Positions 1-42,715 of a DNA stretch of 55,865 bases are shown piece by piece (position 1 is the stretch's first letter; every line of letters starts with the position of its first letter). The stretch spans positions 1-55,865 of the forward strand of contig JAFWBD010000040.1 in assembly GCA_017507325.1 (NCBI GenBank), read 5' to 3'. The translations under genes were made by a program, and so were the position numbers. The notes below the pieces were generated by a model that had not been told where the DNA came from, searched no databases, and saw only the letters and a list, made by a program, of their open reading frames with translations. Origin of the DNA: Clostridia bacterium. Lineage in GTDB: Bacteria; Bacillota; Clostridia; Oscillospirales; SIG627.

Positions 1-180
1 CGCCGTAAGGCGTGTATATCATCCGCAACTTGTTGCGGTATATCATCAACACAAAGTGTTGTATATCATCCAGCTGCAGGGAAATACACGCTGGCGCGTG
101 ATGAGATACAGCCCCAAAGGGGCTGATGATATGCACCGCACTTCGTGCGGCGATGATATGCCAAGCCTGCGGCTTGGATA
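1..180. repeat. Mirrored hairpin-linker element 1 (left edge clipped)
   Basis: Linkers TATATCATC at 15-23, 39-47 and 62-70 are followed by the inverse form at 100-108 (GATGAGATA), 125-132, 152-159 and a partial GATA at 177-180. Between them are short hairpins with 3-4 nt loops: 1-12 (CGCC/GGCG), 23-38 (CCGCAA/TTGCGG), 48-60 (AACAC/GTGTT), a degenerate centre 71-99, then 109-125, 136-150 and 161-177. The linker orientation flips at the centre. One more left linker is expected just before base 1. The right end touches the tRNA-Leu terminator. No coding function is seen. Confidence 0.85.
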
Positions 181-212
181 AAAAAATCCGATGCTTTCGC
201 ATCGGATTTTTT
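181..212 (-). terminator. Intrinsic terminator of tRNA-Leu
   Basis: A perfect 14-bp stem (181-194 with 199-212) closes a TTTC loop. Read leftward, the stem ends in a run of six T and directly follows the encoded CCA of the tRNA. Confidence 0.85.
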
Positions 213-12204: not shown

Positions 12205-12238
12205 GAATCAATTCTTTTCTACCCGTCCAACAAAAAAG

Positions 12239-12273
12239 GAACATTTGTCTACCAAGACAAATGTTCTTTTTTT
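12239..12273 (+). terminator. Terminator of rplJL
   Basis: A 12-bp perfect stem (12239-12250 with 12255-12266), loop ACCA and seven T. The next hairpin-linker element begins at the end of the T-run. Confidence 0.9.
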
Positions 12274-12446
12274 GAATGATGTTTGCCTTCGGCAAATGAT
12301 GGCGGCTTCGCCTAATGATGCTCGCTTCGCGAATGATGTGTGCCTTACGGCACATTGGAGCAAACATCGCATCATTGCAAAGCGGAGTGGAGCAACATCA
12401 TATTTGCGAAGCAAATGCATCATATCGCCGCAGGCGATGCTTCATT
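12274..12446. repeat. Mirrored hairpin-linker element 2
   Basis: Left linkers AATGATG at 12275-12281, 12295-12301, 12314-12320 and 12332-12338; inverted right linkers CATCAT(T) at 12370-12376, 12396-12401, 12418-12423 and CTTCATT at 12440-12446. Hairpins between them: 12282-12294 (loop TTC), 12301-12312, 12322-12332, the central TGTGCC/GGCACA (12339-12354), a degraded TTGC/GCAA (12375-12395), ATTTGC/GCAAAT (12402-12416) and ATCGCC/GGCGAT (12424-12438). Exactly four plus four linkers and three plus centre plus three hairpins. Confidence 0.88.
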
Positions 12447-12495: not shown

Positions 12496-12969
12496 ATGTT
12501 GTTGCTAAATTATGATTTTTATGATATTTATGCGGTGCTGATATCGTTCCGAAATGACCCATCAAATACATTTAACGAGAAGATTGCCAAAACTATAAAA
12601 GCATTGTTAGAATCGCCCCAAGTGGATAATTTAATCGAATCCAATATAATTCGCCGCTCGATTGCAGAAATAGAAAATCTTGATATTGAACTGCTCGCTT
12701 GGATCAAAACAAACAATATATACACGTACGGGCAAAAGGTTATCAAAGAAGAAACTGCTTATCATATATTGTCCGCAGGATTTGCAGAGCTGTTGGTTTG
12801 CTTAAAAGATGAAAACTATAAGCGTTTTGAGGATTTGGCAGATGCGTTGCATAATGTTCCGATTATTCTCTCAGAAAGCCCAAGAAACTGTTTAAAACGA
12901 ATAAAGATAGAAATATCTACTTATCGAAAGGAATGGAACAATTCATTCTTAAAGGATATCATAAGGTAA
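12496..12969 (+). CDS. Uncharacterised 157-residue protein, AT-rich gene
   Basis: Not recognised. The product is soluble, mostly helical in appearance, with no signal peptide, membrane segment or cysteine cluster; it starts MLLLNYDFYDIYAVLISFRN. GAGGCG stands before the ATG at 12496 and a good promoter lies 22 bp upstream, so expression is likely. Codon use is AT-rich and unlike the flanking ribosomal genes (many ATA, TTA and AAT codons; its Asn-Val pair is AATGTT against the local habit), which points to acquisition. It stands alone between a hairpin element and a lipoprotein gene. Size and solitary position would fit an immunity-type orphan, but nothing seen proves that. Confidence 0.6.
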   Translation: MLLLNYDFYDIYAVLISFRNDPSNTFNEKIAKTIKALLESPQVDNLIESNIIRRSIAEIENLDIELLAWIKTNNIYTYGQKVIKEETAYHILSAGFAELLVCLKDENYKRFEDLADALHNVPIILSESPRNCLKRIKIEISTYRKEWNNSFLKDIIR

Positions 12970-13147: not shown

Positions 13148-13759
13148 ATGAAAAAGCTATTTTGCTTCTTTTTGATGGTTGCCGTTTTGATGGCATTTTG
13201 CAGTTGCGATACGACTGACGTTACCACAACCGGAACCAATGAAGATGCTTCTACCAAAACCGAAGCCTCCACAGATTCCGGCAATGTGACCGAACCCGAC
13301 AGCGAAACGGAAGGTGGCAACAGTACCGAGCCCGCTACCGAGCCCGCTACCGAGCCTACTACTGAGCCCGCTACCGAGCCTTCCACCGGCGGAACCGAGA
13401 ACCCCGGTCAGGGCGGAACTGAGAACCTCGGTCAGGGCGGAACCGAGAACCCCGGTCAGGGCGGAACTGAGAACCCCGGCCAGGGCGGAACTGAGAACCC
13501 CGGCCAGGGCGGAACTGAGAACCCCGGTCAGGGTGGAACCGAGAACCCCGGTCAGGGTGGAACCGAGAACCCCGGTCAGGGCGGAACTGAGAACCCCGGC
13601 CAGGGCGGAACTGAGAACCCCGGTCAGGGTGGAACTGAGAACCCCGGTCAGGGCGGAACCGAGAACCCCGGTCAGGGCGGAACCGAGAACCCCGGTCAGG
13701 GCGGAACCGAGAACCCCGGCATCGGCGGTGTTATCCAAACCCCCATCGTTCCCATGTAA
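13148..13759 (+). CDS. Putative lipoprotein with fourteen GGTENPGQ repeats
   Basis: 203 residues. The signal peptide MKKLFCFFLMVAVLMAFCSC has the length and hydrophobicity of a lipoprotein signal; the second Cys of FCSC could be lipidated, although the residues before it are not ideal. After a Thr/Glu/Ser-rich part with TEPA repeats, residues 81-192 are fourteen 8-residue units, mostly GGTENPGQ, and the protein ends VIQTPIVPM. No enzymatic domain is present. The charge and Pro/Gly content suggest an extended surface stalk or spacer. The DNA repeat (24 bp) makes the gene prone to length change. AGGAGA lies before the ATG and a terminator follows. Confidence 0.75.
   Translation: MKKLFCFFLMVAVLMAFCSCDTTDVTTTGTNEDASTKTEASTDSGNVTEPDSETEGGNSTEPATEPATEPTTEPATEPSTGGTENPGQGGTENLGQGGTENPGQGGTENPGQGGTENPGQGGTENPGQGGTENPGQGGTENPGQGGTENPGQGGTENPGQGGTENPGQGGTENPGQGGTENPGQGGTENPGIGGVIQTPIVPM
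13388..13723 (+). repeat. Tandem 24-bp repeat, 14 copies, in frame
   Basis: 336 bp = 14 x 24 bp, each coding Gly-Gly-Thr-Glu-Asn-Pro-Gly-Gln; copy 2 has Leu for Pro and copy 14 Ile for Gln. Copies differ mainly at third positions (ACC/ACT, GGT/GGC), in a mosaic suggesting repeated unequal exchange. Confidence 0.95.
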
Positions 13760-36003: not shown

Positions 36004-36068
36004 AAAACGCTCCCCTCGAAATGGGAGAGCGCGATAACGAAGGATTCACATAAGTGATTCGAGCGTGC

Positions 36069-36238
36069 CCATAATGAATTGCCCTAAATGGCATGAATTG
36101 GCTTGCGCCGTGAATGGAACTTCGTTCATGAATTGCCTTCGGCATGAAAAAAATAGCAATTCAATTCATGAAAACAATGTTTTCAAATCATGAAGCCGTC
36201 AGGCTTCCATTCATGACGCAAAGCGTCCATTCATTACG
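36069..36238. repeat. Mirrored hairpin-linker element 3
   Basis: Left linkers ATGAATT at 36074-36080, 36093-36099, (TGAATGG) 36111-36117 and 36128-36134; inverted right linkers AATTCAT at 36163-36169, AAATCATG 36185-36192, CCATTCATG 36207-36215 and CCATTCAT 36227-36234. Hairpins: GCC/GGC 36081-36092, GGC/GCC 36100-36109, GAAC/GTTC 36117-36127, centre 36135-36162, GAAAAC/GTTTTC about 36170-36184, AAGCC/GGCTT 36193-36206 and GACG/CGTC about 36215-36227. Four plus four linkers again. Confidence 0.85.
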
Positions 36239-36265
36239 ATCCGGAGAAAATTGTCTGAAGCAACG

Positions 36266-36318
36266 CAAAAGCACTTATGACAAACGTTTTATTCGTTATC
36301 ATAAGTGCTTTTTGTTAA
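36266..36318 (+). terminator. Strong hairpin with T-tail, probable terminator
   Basis: AAAAGCACTTATGA pairs with TCATAAGTGCTTTT, with an inner AAACG/CGTT extension and TTTTTGTT after it. The A-run on the other side lets it serve leftward transcripts of the SGNH genes as well. Confidence 0.75.
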
Positions 36319-36366
36319 AACTTCGTTAAGAGCATTCACGCTAAATGAGGAGAGCGTTTTTTGCTT

Positions 36367-37047
36367 TTACAGAAGATCATCCAAAAGCTCGCGGATAAAA
36401 TCCATAAACATGGCATAGCCGCGGGGATTGAGATGAACCCCATCGGAAGCGAAAATATCCTCGCGGATCAAATCGTAATCCCCTGCATCCTCGGGATTTT
36501 CAAAGAAGAAGGGCTGATCCACCAGAGACACGAAATGGCAGTTTTCCGTTTTGGCACAGAAATCCTCCAGGATTTCATTGAATTCCGCGCGGTGGCGGGT
36601 GGCCATACTCTTTTCGCCCTTACGCTTCAAGGTAGGAACGGCACCGAAGCAATAAACGGGAATTCCGGGGAAATCCGCCTGCGTCCAATTGACCACGCGG
36701 GCCAAAATCTCCATAACCTCCTTGGCGCTGTAGCCAAAGCCCAAATCGTTCCCGAAGGTTGCCACAACCAGTGCGCGGGGCTCATAGGCGCGAACCATAC
36801 GGTCGTAGTAATAAAGGAGATCGTCGGCACTGCTGGTCCCGAAGCCGTGGTTCACAATGGCCTGAGATCCGTCCTTCATACGAACCTCTTCCTCCAAAAC
36901 GGGATTTTCCTTGAAGCTTGTAATCACGGAGCAACGGGTAAAGAGGGAATGTCCGTAAAACAGAATCTTACCCTTTACCATCGGCATGGATTCATAGCGG
37001 GTGATCCGATTCTCAAAGCGCTTCACCTTCAATCTGGATCCGTACAT
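36367..37047 (-). CDS. SGNH/GDSL hydrolase, paralogue 1 of 4
   Basis: 226 residues, cytoplasmic (no signal peptide). Block I is KILFYGHSLFTR, with GHS in place of GDS but the Ser kept; block II NHGFGTSSADDLL; block III VATFGNDLGFG (Asn); block V ASDGVHLNPRGYAMF (Asp and His). So the Ser-His-Asp set is complete. Likely esterase or deacetylase on a small or carbohydrate substrate. Last of four tandem paralogues of identical length; its ribosome site and first codons are nearly identical to those of copy 2 (AAGGAGAAAAATCA), showing recent duplication. Confidence 0.85.
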   Translation of the reverse strand: MYGSRLKVKRFENRITRYESMPMVKGKILFYGHSLFTRCSVITSFKENPVLEEEVRMKDGSQAIVNHGFGTSSADDLLYYYDRMVRAYEPRALVVATFGNDLGFGYSAKEVMEILARVVNWTQADFPGIPVYCFGAVPTLKRKGEKSMATRHRAEFNEILEDFCAKTENCHFVSLVDQPFFFENPEDAGDYDLIREDIFASDGVHLNPRGYAMFMDFIRELLDDLL

Positions 37048-37092
37048 TGATTTTTCTCCTTTTTGTTTTGTAAAAAGCGGTAAACAGTCAAA

Positions 37093-37773
37093 TTACAGAT
37101 ACTGATCAAAAAGCTCGCGGATAAAATCCATAAACATCGCGTAGCCCTGAGGATTCAAATGTGTGGAATCGGCTGCAAAAATATCCTCACGGATCAAATC
37201 ATAATTTCCTGCATCCTCGGGATTTTCAAAGAAAAAGGGCTGATCCACCAGAGACACAAAATGGCAATTTTCCGTTTTGGCGCAGAAATCCTCCAGGATT
37301 TCATTGAATTCCGCGCGGGAACGGGTGTAACGGTTCTTTTCACCTTTGCTCTTCAAGGTAGGAACGGCACCGAAGCAATAAACGGGAAGCCCCGGAAAAT
37401 CCGCCTGCGCCCACTGAACCACACGGGCCAGAACCTCCATCACTTCCTTTGCACTGTAGCCAAAGCCAACATCGTTGGCGTGGGAGGCCAAAACCAGAAC
37501 GCGGGGCTCATAGGCGCGGACCATACGGTCGTAATAATAGAGCAGGTCATCGGCGCTGCTGGTGCCGAAGCCGTGGTTCACAATGGCCTGAGATCCGTCC
37601 TTCATACGAACCTCCTGCTCCAAAACGGGATTCTCCTTGGATTTGGTGATCACAGAGCAGCGAGTAAAAAGAGAGTGGCCGTAAAACAAGATTTTTCCCT
37701 TCTCCACGGGGAAAGATTCGTAGCGGGTGATTCTGTCCTCAAAGCGCTTCACCTTCAATCTGGATCCGTACAT
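37093..37773 (-). CDS. SGNH/GDSL hydrolase, paralogue 2 of 4
   Basis: 226 residues from the ATG at 37773 (AAGGAG upstream; a longer frame to 37839 has no site and would overlap the upstream paralogue). Closest to paralogue 1: LLYYYDRMVRAYEPR, SLVDQPFFFENPEDAG and FDQYL end. Block I GHSLFTR; block III LASHANDVGFG, where the Gly before Asn is changed to Ala; block V AADSTHLNPQGY. Catalytic residues remain. Spacing to the upstream gene is 40 bp. Confidence 0.85.
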   Translation of the reverse strand: MYGSRLKVKRFEDRITRYESFPVEKGKILFYGHSLFTRCSVITKSKENPVLEQEVRMKDGSQAIVNHGFGTSSADDLLYYYDRMVRAYEPRVLVLASHANDVGFGYSAKEVMEVLARVVQWAQADFPGLPVYCFGAVPTLKSKGEKNRYTRSRAEFNEILEDFCAKTENCHFVSLVDQPFFFENPEDAGNYDLIREDIFAADSTHLNPQGYAMFMDFIRELFDQYL

Positions 37774-37813
37774 TGATTTTTCTCCTTTTTCATTTAAATT
37801 CAAAACAGACAAA

Positions 37814-38494
37814 TTACAGATACTGATCGAAAAGCTCACGGATCATATCCATAAACATCGAATAGCCCAGCGGATTAAAGTGCCCCTTGTCGGCGGCGTA
37901 AATATCGTCACGAACCTTGTGGCGATCGCCCACGTCCTCGGGATTGGCATACAAAAAGGGCTGCTTCAACATAGAAACGTAAGTGCAATTCTCTTTTCTT
38001 GCGCAATAATCCTCCAAAATCTGATCGAATTCATCACGCAGACGGGTGCTCGCATCCACGATGCCGACGTTCTTCAATCCGGGAGCAGGGCCAAAGCAAT
38101 AAACGGGAAGGCCGGGGAAATCCGCCTGGGCCCAATCGATCACACGAGCCAGAATCTCCATAATCTCCTTGGCGCTGTAGCCGAATCCGATATCGTTTCC
38201 GCCGGTGGCCAAAACCAGAACGCGGGGCTTATAGGGGCGAACCATACGGCTGTAGTAATAAAGGAGGTCATCGGCACTGCTGGTTCCGAAGCCGTGGTTG
38301 ATGATAGCCTTGGAGCCATCCTTCATACGAACCTCTTCTTCCAAAACGGGATTGTCCTTGGAACCCGTAATGAAGGAACAGCGGGTGAAGAGAGAGTGCC
38401 CGTAAAACAGAATTTTCCCCGTCTCCACGGGAAGGGATTCATAGCGGGTGATTCTGTCCTCAAAGCGCTTAACTTTTAACTTGGAACCGTACAT
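37814..38494 (-). CDS. SGNH/GDSL hydrolase, paralogue 3 of 4 (most divergent)
   Basis: 226 residues. Block I GHSLFTRCSF; block III LATGGNDIGFG; block V AADKGHFNPLGY. The middle part differs from the others (PAPGLKNVGIVDASTR, YVSMLKQPFLYANPEDVG), the region that usually shapes the substrate site. ATG at 38494 with AAGGAG. Same operon as the other three. Confidence 0.85.
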   Translation of the reverse strand: MYGSKLKVKRFEDRITRYESLPVETGKILFYGHSLFTRCSFITGSKDNPVLEEEVRMKDGSKAIINHGFGTSSADDLLYYYSRMVRPYKPRVLVLATGGNDIGFGYSAKEIMEILARVIDWAQADFPGLPVYCFGPAPGLKNVGIVDASTRLRDEFDQILEDYCARKENCTYVSMLKQPFLYANPEDVGDRHKVRDDIYAADKGHFNPLGYSMFMDMIRELFDQYL

Positions 38495-38536
38495 TTCTCA
38501 TTCTCCTTTTTTATCAAAAATCTATCATTCTCGGAC

Positions 38537-39217
38537 TCACAAAAGATCGTCCAAAAGCTCACGAATAAAATCCATAAACATAACATAGCCCTGCGGATTC
38601 AAATGATTCCGATCCGAAGCAAAAATATCCTCACGGACCGAATCATAATCCCCTACGTCCTCGGGATTCTCAAAATAGAAGGGCTGATCCACCAAGGAAA
38701 CGTACTCACAGTTTTCCTGCCTTGCGCAAAAATCCTCCAAGATTTGGTTGTATTCGGTGCGGAAGCGGGTGTAAAAGTTTTTCTCTCCCTTATGCTTCAC
38801 ATCGGGATCAAAGCCGAAGCAGAAAATACGAATTCCCGGAAAATCCGCTTTGGCCCAATTGACCACGCGTGCCAGAATCTCCACCACTTCGCTCGGAGAA
38901 TATCCGTAGGCGACGTCATTGCTCCCCGTGATCAAAACCAATGCGCGGGGCTCATAAGGGCGGACCATACGGCTATAGTAATAAAGAAGATCATCGGCAC
39001 TGCTGGTTCCGAATCCGTGGTTGATGATGGCCTGAGACCCATCCTTCATGCGAACCTCTTCCGCCAAAACAGGATTGGCCTTGGAACCCGTGATGAAAGA
39101 ACAGCGGGTGAAAAGAGAGTGACCGTAAAACAAAATTTTGCCCTTTTGTATGGGAACAGATTCGTATTTTTCAATCCTGTCCTCGAATCGTTTTACCCTC
39201 AATCGAGATCCAAACAT
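38537..39217 (-). CDS. SGNH/GDSL hydrolase, paralogue 4 of 4 (promoter-proximal)
   Basis: 226 residues from the ATG at 39217, chosen for GGAGGAG; an upstream in-frame start at 39280 lies in the promoter. Block I GHSLFTRCSF; block III LITGSNDVAYG; block V ASDRNHLNPQGY. It reads SLVDQPFYFENPEDVG like copies 1 and 2. It is first in the operon behind the promoter at 39252-39280. Confidence 0.85.
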   Translation of the reverse strand: MFGSRLRVKRFEDRIEKYESVPIQKGKILFYGHSLFTRCSFITGSKANPVLAEEVRMKDGSQAIINHGFGTSSADDLLYYYSRMVRPYEPRALVLITGSNDVAYGYSPSEVVEILARVVNWAKADFPGIRIFCFGFDPDVKHKGEKNFYTRFRTEYNQILEDFCARQENCEYVSLVDQPFYFENPEDVGDYDSVREDIFASDRNHLNPQGYVMFMDFIRELLDDLL

Positions 39218-39251
39218 ACTTCTCCTCCTTGGGAAGATTGATACCCCTCTG

Positions 39252-39280
39252 AGTATACTATTAATCAAAAAAGAAATCAA
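39252..39280 (-). promoter_or_regulatory. Promoter of the SGNH operon
   Basis: Minus strand: TTGATT (39275-39280), 17 bp, TATACT (39252-39257), 35 bp before the ATG. Confidence 0.75.
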
Positions 39281-40938: not shown

Positions 40939-41174
40939 GCAAATCGAACTTTTCCCGCGGCCAGATACTTTCATATGTAAAAATAACAAGTATGTGCATT
41001 ATTGTTATGTGGAACATTAGTCCGCTATTGATGAAGCCTAATCATACGCAAGGCAAAGGCAATTGATTTATCAATTAAAATATTCTTCATATTGAACCTC
41101 CGTTCCAAAAAAATTATATCATATATTTGTATTTGCAAAGATTTTAACAGCATTATTCATCAGCGCAGCGTCTT
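40939..41174. other. AT-rich intergenic stretch after the GH28 gene
   Basis: No gene is supported and no good terminator for the GH28 gene is seen. Composition falls to strongly AT-rich after 41040. Confidence 0.35.
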
Positions 41175-41287
41175 CATTATTCATTCTTCATTAAAAAATC
41201 CGCGTGGAGGGAATGAATAATGAATGATGAATAATAAAAAATGAATAATACAAACAAAAATCCGCATTCTTGCGAACGCGGATTTTT
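41175..41287. repeat. Degenerate inverted repeat with terminator-like hairpin
   Basis: ATTATTCATTCTTCATT (41177-41193) is an imperfect inverse of AATGAATGATGAATAAT (41219-41235). Next comes the hairpin AAAAATCCGC/GCGGATTTTT (41256-41287) with an inner TTC/GAA stem. The ATTCAT/ATGAAT words resemble the linkers of the mirrored elements, so this may be a decayed or partial relative. Confidence 0.5.
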
Positions 41288-41457
41288 GTTTGGGACGTGT
41301 GTCCGATTTAGATGCAAAACCGTGTGTGGCTGGTTTAGATGCACGTGGGTTTTGCAGAGGGTACAATAACCCACAGGCGTGTATGGGAGTTAAAAGGTTC
41401 CACGACCTACCGGACTTTTAACGCCATGCTTGCAAACGAAGCCTATGTAATTAATGA

Positions 41458-42252: not shown

Positions 42253-42426
42253 GAAATGAATGAAATCGTGCGTTGCACGATGAAATCCGAGCAAGCTCGG
42301 ATGAAATCTTCGTCGTTCCGCTTCAGATGAAATTAAATCCGCCTCTACATCCTGCCGTAAGGCAGATTTCATCGCGAAGCGATTTCATCCACCGCAGGTG
42401 GATTTCTTCCGCCGACGGCGGATTTA
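42253..42426. repeat. Mirrored hairpin-linker element 4
   Basis: Left linkers ATGAAAT at 42260-42266, 42280-42286, 42301-42307 and 42327-42333; inverted right linkers ATTTCAT at 42366-42372, 42382-42388, then ATTTC (42402-42406) and ATTT (42422-42425). Hairpins: CGTGC/GCACG 42267-42279, CCGAG/CTCGG 42287-42300, an imperfect one 42308-42326, centre 42334-42365 including CTGCC/GGCAG, then CGC/GCG 42373-42381, CCACC/GGTGG 42389-42401 and CCGCC/GGCGG about 42408-42420. The clearest case of the family. Confidence 0.9.
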
Positions 42427-42429
42427 GTT

Positions 42430-42463
42430 GCAAAAAGCACCTGCTTGCGCAGGTGCTTTTTGC
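42430..42463 (-). terminator. Terminator-type hairpin next to the tRNA-Gln tail fragment
   Basis: A 15-bp perfect stem GCAAAAAGCACCTGC / GCAGGTGCTTTTTGC (42430-42444 with 42449-42463). Read leftward it ends in T5 and directly follows a copy of a tRNA 3' end. Confidence 0.75.
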
Positions 42464-42500
42464 TGGCTGGGATACCTGGACACGCTAAGCTGTCGAACCG
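42464..42500 (-). pseudogene. Truncated copy of the tRNA-Gln 3' end
   Basis: TGGCTGGGATA (42464-42474) is identical to the encoded CCA, discriminator and acceptor strand of the intact tRNA-Gln (42640-42650), followed by CTGGA and, after a gap, CGAACC of the T-arm. No cloverleaf can form. Both the fragment and the intact gene abut a terminator hairpin. Confidence 0.6.
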
Positions 42501-42602
42501 GCTTTGCGTGAGATTAGTTGGATTAGTAATGTTTTCAGTACGCAAAGCCTTAGTAAATCCGTTTTTACGGATTTACGGGTTCTTCGTCCGTACACTCATA
42601 CG

Positions 42603-42640
42603 AAAGATAGCCATACGGCAAGCGCCGTATGGCTATCTTT
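42603..42640 (-). terminator. Terminator of tRNA-Gln
   Basis: AAAGATAGCCATACGGC pairs with GCCGTATGGCTATCTTT around a short loop; read leftward it ends in TTT, directly after the tRNA CCA. Confidence 0.75.
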
Positions 42641-42642
42641 GG

Positions 42643-42715
42643 CTGGGATAGCTGGACTCGAACCAGCGGATGCAGGAGTCAAAGTCCTGTGCCTTACCGA
42701 CTTGGCGATATCCCA
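42643..42715 (-). tRNA. tRNA-Gln (anticodon UUG)
   Basis: Minus strand: acceptor TGGGATA/TATCCCA, D-arm with AAGTCGGTAAGGC, anticodon stem CAGGA/TCCTG around CTTTGAC giving TTG, T-arm GCTGG-TTCGAGT-CCAGC, discriminator G and encoded CCA at 42640-42642. Confidence 0.95.

Follow-up and report, generated by a model that had tools for sequence, protein, structure and literature searches.

A mirrored string of short hairpins and conserved linkers in the genome of a Clostridia bacterium is, on balance, probably the cis-acting part of a short selfish element resembling rRNA intervening sequences (IVS), with linkers recognised by the 23S rRNA-intervening sequence protein (IVP). The evidence comes from the architecture of the string and its recurrence, from linkers that match between the two halves and are inherited together with the IVP, from placement at tRNAs and terminators, from presence and absence between relatives, and from near-identical copies across genera. 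The string lies in a stretch of 55,865 nt, all of which was analysed (hereafter, the window; GenBank assembly GCA_017507325.1, contig JAFWBD010000040.1, positions 1 to 55,865).

As the sequence-only reading had described, the string (window 42260-42426) contains four ATGAAAT-type and then four ATTTCAT-type linkers, with hairpins interspersed. The exact linkers are ATGAAAT at 42260, 42280, 42301, and 42327, and ATTTCAT at 42366 and 42382; the count of four plus four holds only if the degenerate ATTTCTT (42402) and ATTTAGT (42422) are included. Of the seven hairpins claimed, six are good, and one (42308-42326) is imperfect. The fold z-score is -4.6, with none of 200 shuffles folding as well. Two features had been missed: a pairing between two distant segments, X and X', and a terminator-like head hairpin. 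As this hairpin is present at one end only, the element is not symmetric. Read head to tail, that is, on the minus strand, it consists of the head hairpin (42463-42430), X as the first arm of HP1, linkers L1-L3 alternating with HP2-HP4, X', and linkers R1-R4 alternating with HP5-HP7. In this direction, X' reads GGCGGATTTA and is exactly complementary to X. No IVP gene accompanies the focus copy, which is a solo string; a second copy, 94% identical over 242 bp, was found on another contig (C13). From tail to head, the parts are as follows.

42260-42266, minus strand: R4, the tail-most linker, ATGAAAT on the plus strand and ATTTCAT on the head-to-tail strand (sequence)
42265-42281: hairpin HP7, ATCGTGC-GTT-GCACGAT (inverted repeat)
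42280-42286, minus strand: linker R3 (sequence)
42285-42302: hairpin HP6, ATCCGAGC-AA-GCTCGGAT (inverted repeat)
42301-42307, minus strand: linker R2 (sequence)
42308-42326: HP5, the imperfect hairpin (sequence)
42327-42333, minus strand: linker R1 (sequence)
42334-42343: X', the central copy, TAAATCCGCC on the plus strand, complementary to X (inverted repeat)
42352-42365: hairpin HP4, CTGCC-GTAA-GGCAG (sequence, folding)
42366-42372, minus strand: linker L3, ATTTCAT on the plus strand (sequence)
42373-42381, plus flanking AT: hairpin HP3, CGC-GAA-GCG (sequence, folding)
42382-42388, minus strand: linker L2 (sequence)
42387-42403: hairpin HP2, ATCCACC-GCA-GGTGGAT (inverted repeat)
42402-42408, minus strand: deviating linker L1, ATTTCTT on the plus strand (sequence)
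42408-42422: hairpin HP1, TCCGCCG-A-CGGCGGA, sharing one arm with X (inverted repeat)
42417-42426, minus strand: X, TAAATCCGCC on the minus strand, pairing in HP1 or with X' (inverted repeat)
42430-42463, minus strand: terminator-like head hairpin, GCAAAAAGCACCTGC/GCAGGTGCTTTTTGC (inverted repeat)
42464-42502, minus strand: probable degenerate copy of a tRNA 3' end beside the head, resembling the tRNA-Gln at 42640-42715 (sequence)
42640-42715, minus strand: tRNA-Gln(ttg)

The same plan occurs elsewhere in the window, as had been noticed from the sequence, each time with a different linker: at 16-159, 12276-12423, and 36074-36234, and in degenerate form at 41155-41246. A detector of mirrored arrays that assumes no linker sequence found five in the window, including the focus string, and none in ten shuffles. 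It further found 74 in 1.07 Mb of fetched loci, which had been chosen for such matches, and none in shuffled copies of them. The full extents of the other window elements are listed below.

16-212, minus strand: element with ATATCA and then TGATAT linkers, adjoining tRNA-Leu
12238-12440, plus strand: TGATG-linker element between the rplL terminator and a promoter with a 157-aa gene
36020-36356: TGAAT-linker element between two terminator arms (AAAAAACGCTC / GAGCGTTTTTT)
41155-41300: degenerate relative with ATTATTC heptamers, adjoining a terminator

The 157-aa gene that directly follows the rplL-side string (12496-12969) belongs to no Pfam family and has no homologue in the other fetched loci.

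Searched with a pattern for one linker type, at least 116 DNA stretches matched, nearly all of them Clostridia MAGs, mostly from herbivore guts; the few matches in other phyla are probably due to chance. Sixteen viral contigs also matched this pattern, but the mirrored detector confirmed only one (L172), and a viral origin was rejected.

The sequence-only reading knew of no named element with this plan, yet half of the unit is Gut-1 of Rfam (RF01706). The two halves of the focus string match it in opposite orientations, and only the head half passes the curated threshold of 50 bits:

42361-42430, minus strand: Gut-1 match of the head half, 51.7 bits (Rfam)
42254-42312, plus strand: Gut-1 match of the tail half, 37.7 bits (Rfam)

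As each half matches the model in mirror orientation, the Rfam "ncRNA" is half of a unit. Gut-1 was introduced as a noncoding RNA from the "human gut only" (Weinberg et al. 2010, PMC2864571). Like the focus halves, the motif consists of three hairpins whose sequences change, separated by GUGAAAU-type linkers; it covers half a unit and mainly one linker family, whereas the full unit is mirrored, carries X:X' and a terminator head, has an IVP gene in complete copies, and comes from ruminant and other gut MAGs (goat, sheep, deer, buffalo, and other records). Instead of one-stranded units of ∼77 nt, we observed convergent pairs of matches within one unit of ∼170 nt with X:X'. In the partially covered literature, we found no Gut-1 paper beyond PMC2864571 and none joining Gut-1 to IVP. 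An expressed structured ncRNA, as listed in Rfam, where the class is annotated as an sRNA gene, would explain why hairpins are kept despite changes in their stems. Still, we regard it as very unlikely, as one model fits the two halves on opposite strands, and the string is enclosed by a terminator and an outward promoter, with no promoter of its own recognised. An orphan RNA class that had been defined on half of its unit gains a genomic context and a protein partner.

Gut-1 matches are present in 20 of the 22 genomes of the family, with 2 to 44 matches each (0 to 44 across the family); the two genomes without a match, G005 and G021, have no IVP either. The source MAG of the window (G000; 1.64 Mb, 72 contigs, 63% complete) has 27, often arranged as convergent pairs and often located at contig ends. 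The string element also accounts for many contig breaks in Clostridia MAGs. In G006, we observed unmirrored strings (L212-L217), each with five to six hairpins joined by TGAAAT linkers and with GTTATGGTTGATTTT at the end; they are near-identical at several loci.

The commonest form among 82 different arrays is X with three left linkers and X' with four right linkers. The statistics below rest on 54 canonical elements, mixed-type strings that were misparsed in some rows being left out. These elements carry 25 different X sequences (some differing in length alone), each with a complementary X', although the match is partly circular, X having been found by its complementarity. Perfect stems of at least 4 bp are present in 59-91% of hairpins, compared with 5-20% after shuffling, while each hairpin position has 24-36 different stems, which agrees with the earlier suggestion that shape is selected while stems change. 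The loops of the left half are rich in TTC and those of the right half richer in GAA/AAA, a difference that two inverted versions of a single design would show. As C(GAA)G forms a DNA mini-hairpin of very high stability, loops of this kind give a hint, but only a hint, of a DNA form.

Linkers fall into several types (TGAAAT, TGATAT, TGATGT, TGAAGY with Y standing for T or C, GCTAAAT, GGAATC, and others). Across types, linkers of the two halves match: in strings picked solely by their position upstream of IVP genes, to avoid circularity, we counted 74 complementary 5-mers, while the permutation mean was 27.4 and the maximum of 20,000 permutations was 55 (p≤5e-5, with related sequences not being independent). 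Covariation of linkers between halves, on which the sequence-only reading had staked its model, is therefore present at the level of linker types.

That model stacks four-way junctions into a column, either in RNA or in extruded DNA, by nested pairing of the linkers. The complementarity of linkers between halves is in its favour, but it has the worst energy of the three folds compared. For the focus copy as RNA, the nested ladder yields -37.4 kcal/mol, compared with -47.0 when the hairpins form separately and -53.7 when X:X' pairs as well; as DNA, the respective values are -18.8, -31.2, and -31.1. The X:X' pairing, 10-12 nt long, competes with the ladder and occupies its outer rung. Moreover, the first left linker is often changed (AGAAAT, ATAAAT, TTCTAT) while its supposed partner is not, so strict rung pairing is not supported, and single linker changes go uncompensated. 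We rejected the ladder because it folds worse than separate hairpins, and consider the junction column highly improbable.

In complete copies, the order is a tRNA-CCA or a gene, a terminator, the hairpin string, a promoter, an IVP gene, and, in many cases, a swapped cargo gene. The gene that follows the string has ∼115 codons and belongs to PF05635, the IVP family (E-values 8e-26 and 2e-28; range for PF05635/TIGR02436, four helix bundle protein, 8e-26 to 2e-31); it is related to the solved structures 2RLD (E-value 1e-25) and 2GSC. A PF05635 ORF is present in complete copies elsewhere and is lacking in the focus copy. The family is represented in 16 of the 22 genomes of the bacterial family and in 45 of 148 genomes of the class. 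It is absent from the near-complete G014 (96%) despite seven Gut-1 matches, and from the source MAG, 63% complete, despite its 27. No PADLOC match was found for IVP, and a defence system was rejected as a candidate.

Among 31 IVP-anchored upstream regions, 27 contain a typed linker chain. The promoter (typically TTGAAA/TTGACT-17-TATAAT, for example ATTTCATTGACT-17-TATAAT) adjoins the last linker: the -35 box starts within 10 nt of it at 18 of the 31 loci, compared with 17% of shuffles, and the start codon follows the -10 box by ∼10-25 nt. Hence IVP transcription begins downstream of the string. This layout, together with linkers that track the IVP, is what would be expected of cis-regulatory DNA, namely an operator or insulator that separates the tRNA terminator from the IVP promoter, is bound by IVP in autoregulation of its own gene, and moves only passively with the operon. 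We find this reading rather unlikely, as many solo strings have no IVP and other subtypes reside in terminator loops, away from IVP.

On a tree of 51 IVPs, linker type, assigned by hand, requires 11 changes, the least possible number being 10; the shuffled mean is 32.3, and none of 200 shuffles is as low. Linker type is thus co-inherited with the IVP clade. The match suggests that IVP recognises the linkers; co-inheritance as one unit would produce the same pattern. It also makes the function of the S23/IVP protein, a long-standing question, directly testable.

IVP genes without a string have repeats of their own. Tandem heptamers were found upstream of 10 of 76 such genes (L265, L268, L280, L281, L298, L322, L275, L312, L321, and L323) and 1 of 217 controls. 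Examples are GCGGAAT, GTGCAGA, and AACCAGT, with almost no repeats at periods 5, 6, 8, or 9. Flanking inverted repeats of at least 11 nt accompany 11 of 38 string-less genes, compared with 2 of 107. By analogy, the string linkers may correspond to these heptamers. Downstream, the IVP has a conserved end (..INTAKE), often closely followed or overlapped by a second gene. L064 and L270 share a cargo gene (97.7% over 521 bp), although the two loci differ in both string type and IVP type, and a nucleotidyltransferase-like cargo gene is common to L050/L271 and L293. With the same cargo behind different IVP and string types, exchange of cargo seems to take place at the IVP end.

The placement of strings is also specific. 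Of 51 canonical strings, 22 begin 33-49 nt downstream of an intact tRNA, and a head hairpin of at least 8 bp precedes 45. Other subtypes are situated inside terminator stems, with flanking inverted repeats of 13, 12, 12, 8, and 7 nt, while mismatched flanks give a mean of 5.2 and a maximum of 9; a sixth copy was excluded, as its contig ends there. The window array at 36020-36356 is placed likewise, between terminator arms. In four of five congeners (the fifth, G004, was left out), a terminator follows rplL with no string, unlike in the window. Although G001 and G017 belong to different genera, their copies of a subtype headed by TTAGCGTG show 99% identity over 336 bp. The gene neighbouring the focus string is absent from all five congeners, so there is no empty site at the focus locus; at the level of these comparisons, neither a target-site duplication nor an empty site, at base resolution or between strains, was recognised.

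Two side observations concern the terminator ends. In the ATTATTC subtype (L275, L286, L312, L321), the tRNA terminator arm is X, and its exact complement is mid-array, as if the host arm had been copied. The heads of L012, L024-L027, L034, L037, L040, and L050 differ in their outer stems, while the apical TTTGTC-TACC-GACAAA is common, sometimes flipped to GGTA.

Reverse transcriptase (RT; PF00078) is absent from 21 of the 22 family genomes, and with RT in a single genome an RT-driven element was rejected. Y1 transposases are present in nine of the 22 and absent from the string-rich G002, G006, and G010; mobilisation by IS200/IS605 or RAYT was rejected, as strings do not correlate with Y1 presence. 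The known machineries of hairpin elements therefore do not fit. The Y1 genes of the nine genomes, the high and uneven copy number, the copies at contig ends, and the extragenic palindromes could still indicate a MITE- or REP-like repeat moved by an unrelated transposase, with IVP as a passenger. String elements indeed resemble REP/BIME-RAYT systems in being multi-copy strings of short extragenic palindromes in inverted orders. However, REP stems are conserved, whereas in the string elements it is the linkers that are kept and the stems that vary; linker type follows the phylogeny of the IVP, and the genomes richest in strings lack Y1. A conserved palindrome with a Y1/RAYT partner was thus not found, and we judge a MITE- or REP-like origin quite unlikely.

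There is a close resemblance to the IVS of 23S rRNA, which has a PF05635 protein, has been called selfish, sits in a hairpin, and carries heptamers upstream of the gene; in Coxiella burnetii, these are GACAGAT heptamers upstream of the S23 gene, with long terminal inverted repeats (PMC4990558). The string elements differ in being located at tRNA 3' ends and terminators, not within 23S rRNA, in having a promoter of their own for the gene and a mirrored hairpin string, and, in the focus copy, in being gene-less. By location, the focus string falls outside the classical 23S IVS family; it may nevertheless work like a selfish element, with IVP as the putative cognate binder. Two other systems share individual traits. 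The DGR accessory protein Avd is a four-helix-bundle relative of IVP, but DGRs differ by the RT that 21 of the 22 genomes lack. Group IIC introns insert at intrinsic terminators; RT is nearly absent in the family, and the window gave no match to an intron family.

Under the selfish-element reading, a complete element would comprise a terminator end, often just after the tRNA CCA, the mirrored string, a promoter, the IVP gene, and sometimes cargo. The IVP, a four-helix bundle that is a pentamer in solved relatives, would recognise the linkers, which would be exposed by the hairpins as short single strands of DNA or RNA between them. Through this recognition, the element may be marked to be copied into the hairpins of other terminators or next to them, and the focus copy would be a solo string whose IVP gene has been lost or was never present. 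It is conceivable, though we hold it only tentatively and as unlikely, that IVP and mirrored string form a distinct class of mobile elements without a known transposase or RT, homing to terminator and tRNA 3' trailer hairpins by an IVP-read linker code, and that Gut-1, the heptamers preceding IVP genes, and the intervening sequences of rRNA are different manifestations of this one class.

The window has two further repetitive regions. Positions 36367-39280 contain tandem paralogous genes of ∼226-250 aa with 77-78% identical DNA, and a 24-bp tandem repeat at 13388-13720 codes for GTENPGQG repeats in a 203-aa ORF.
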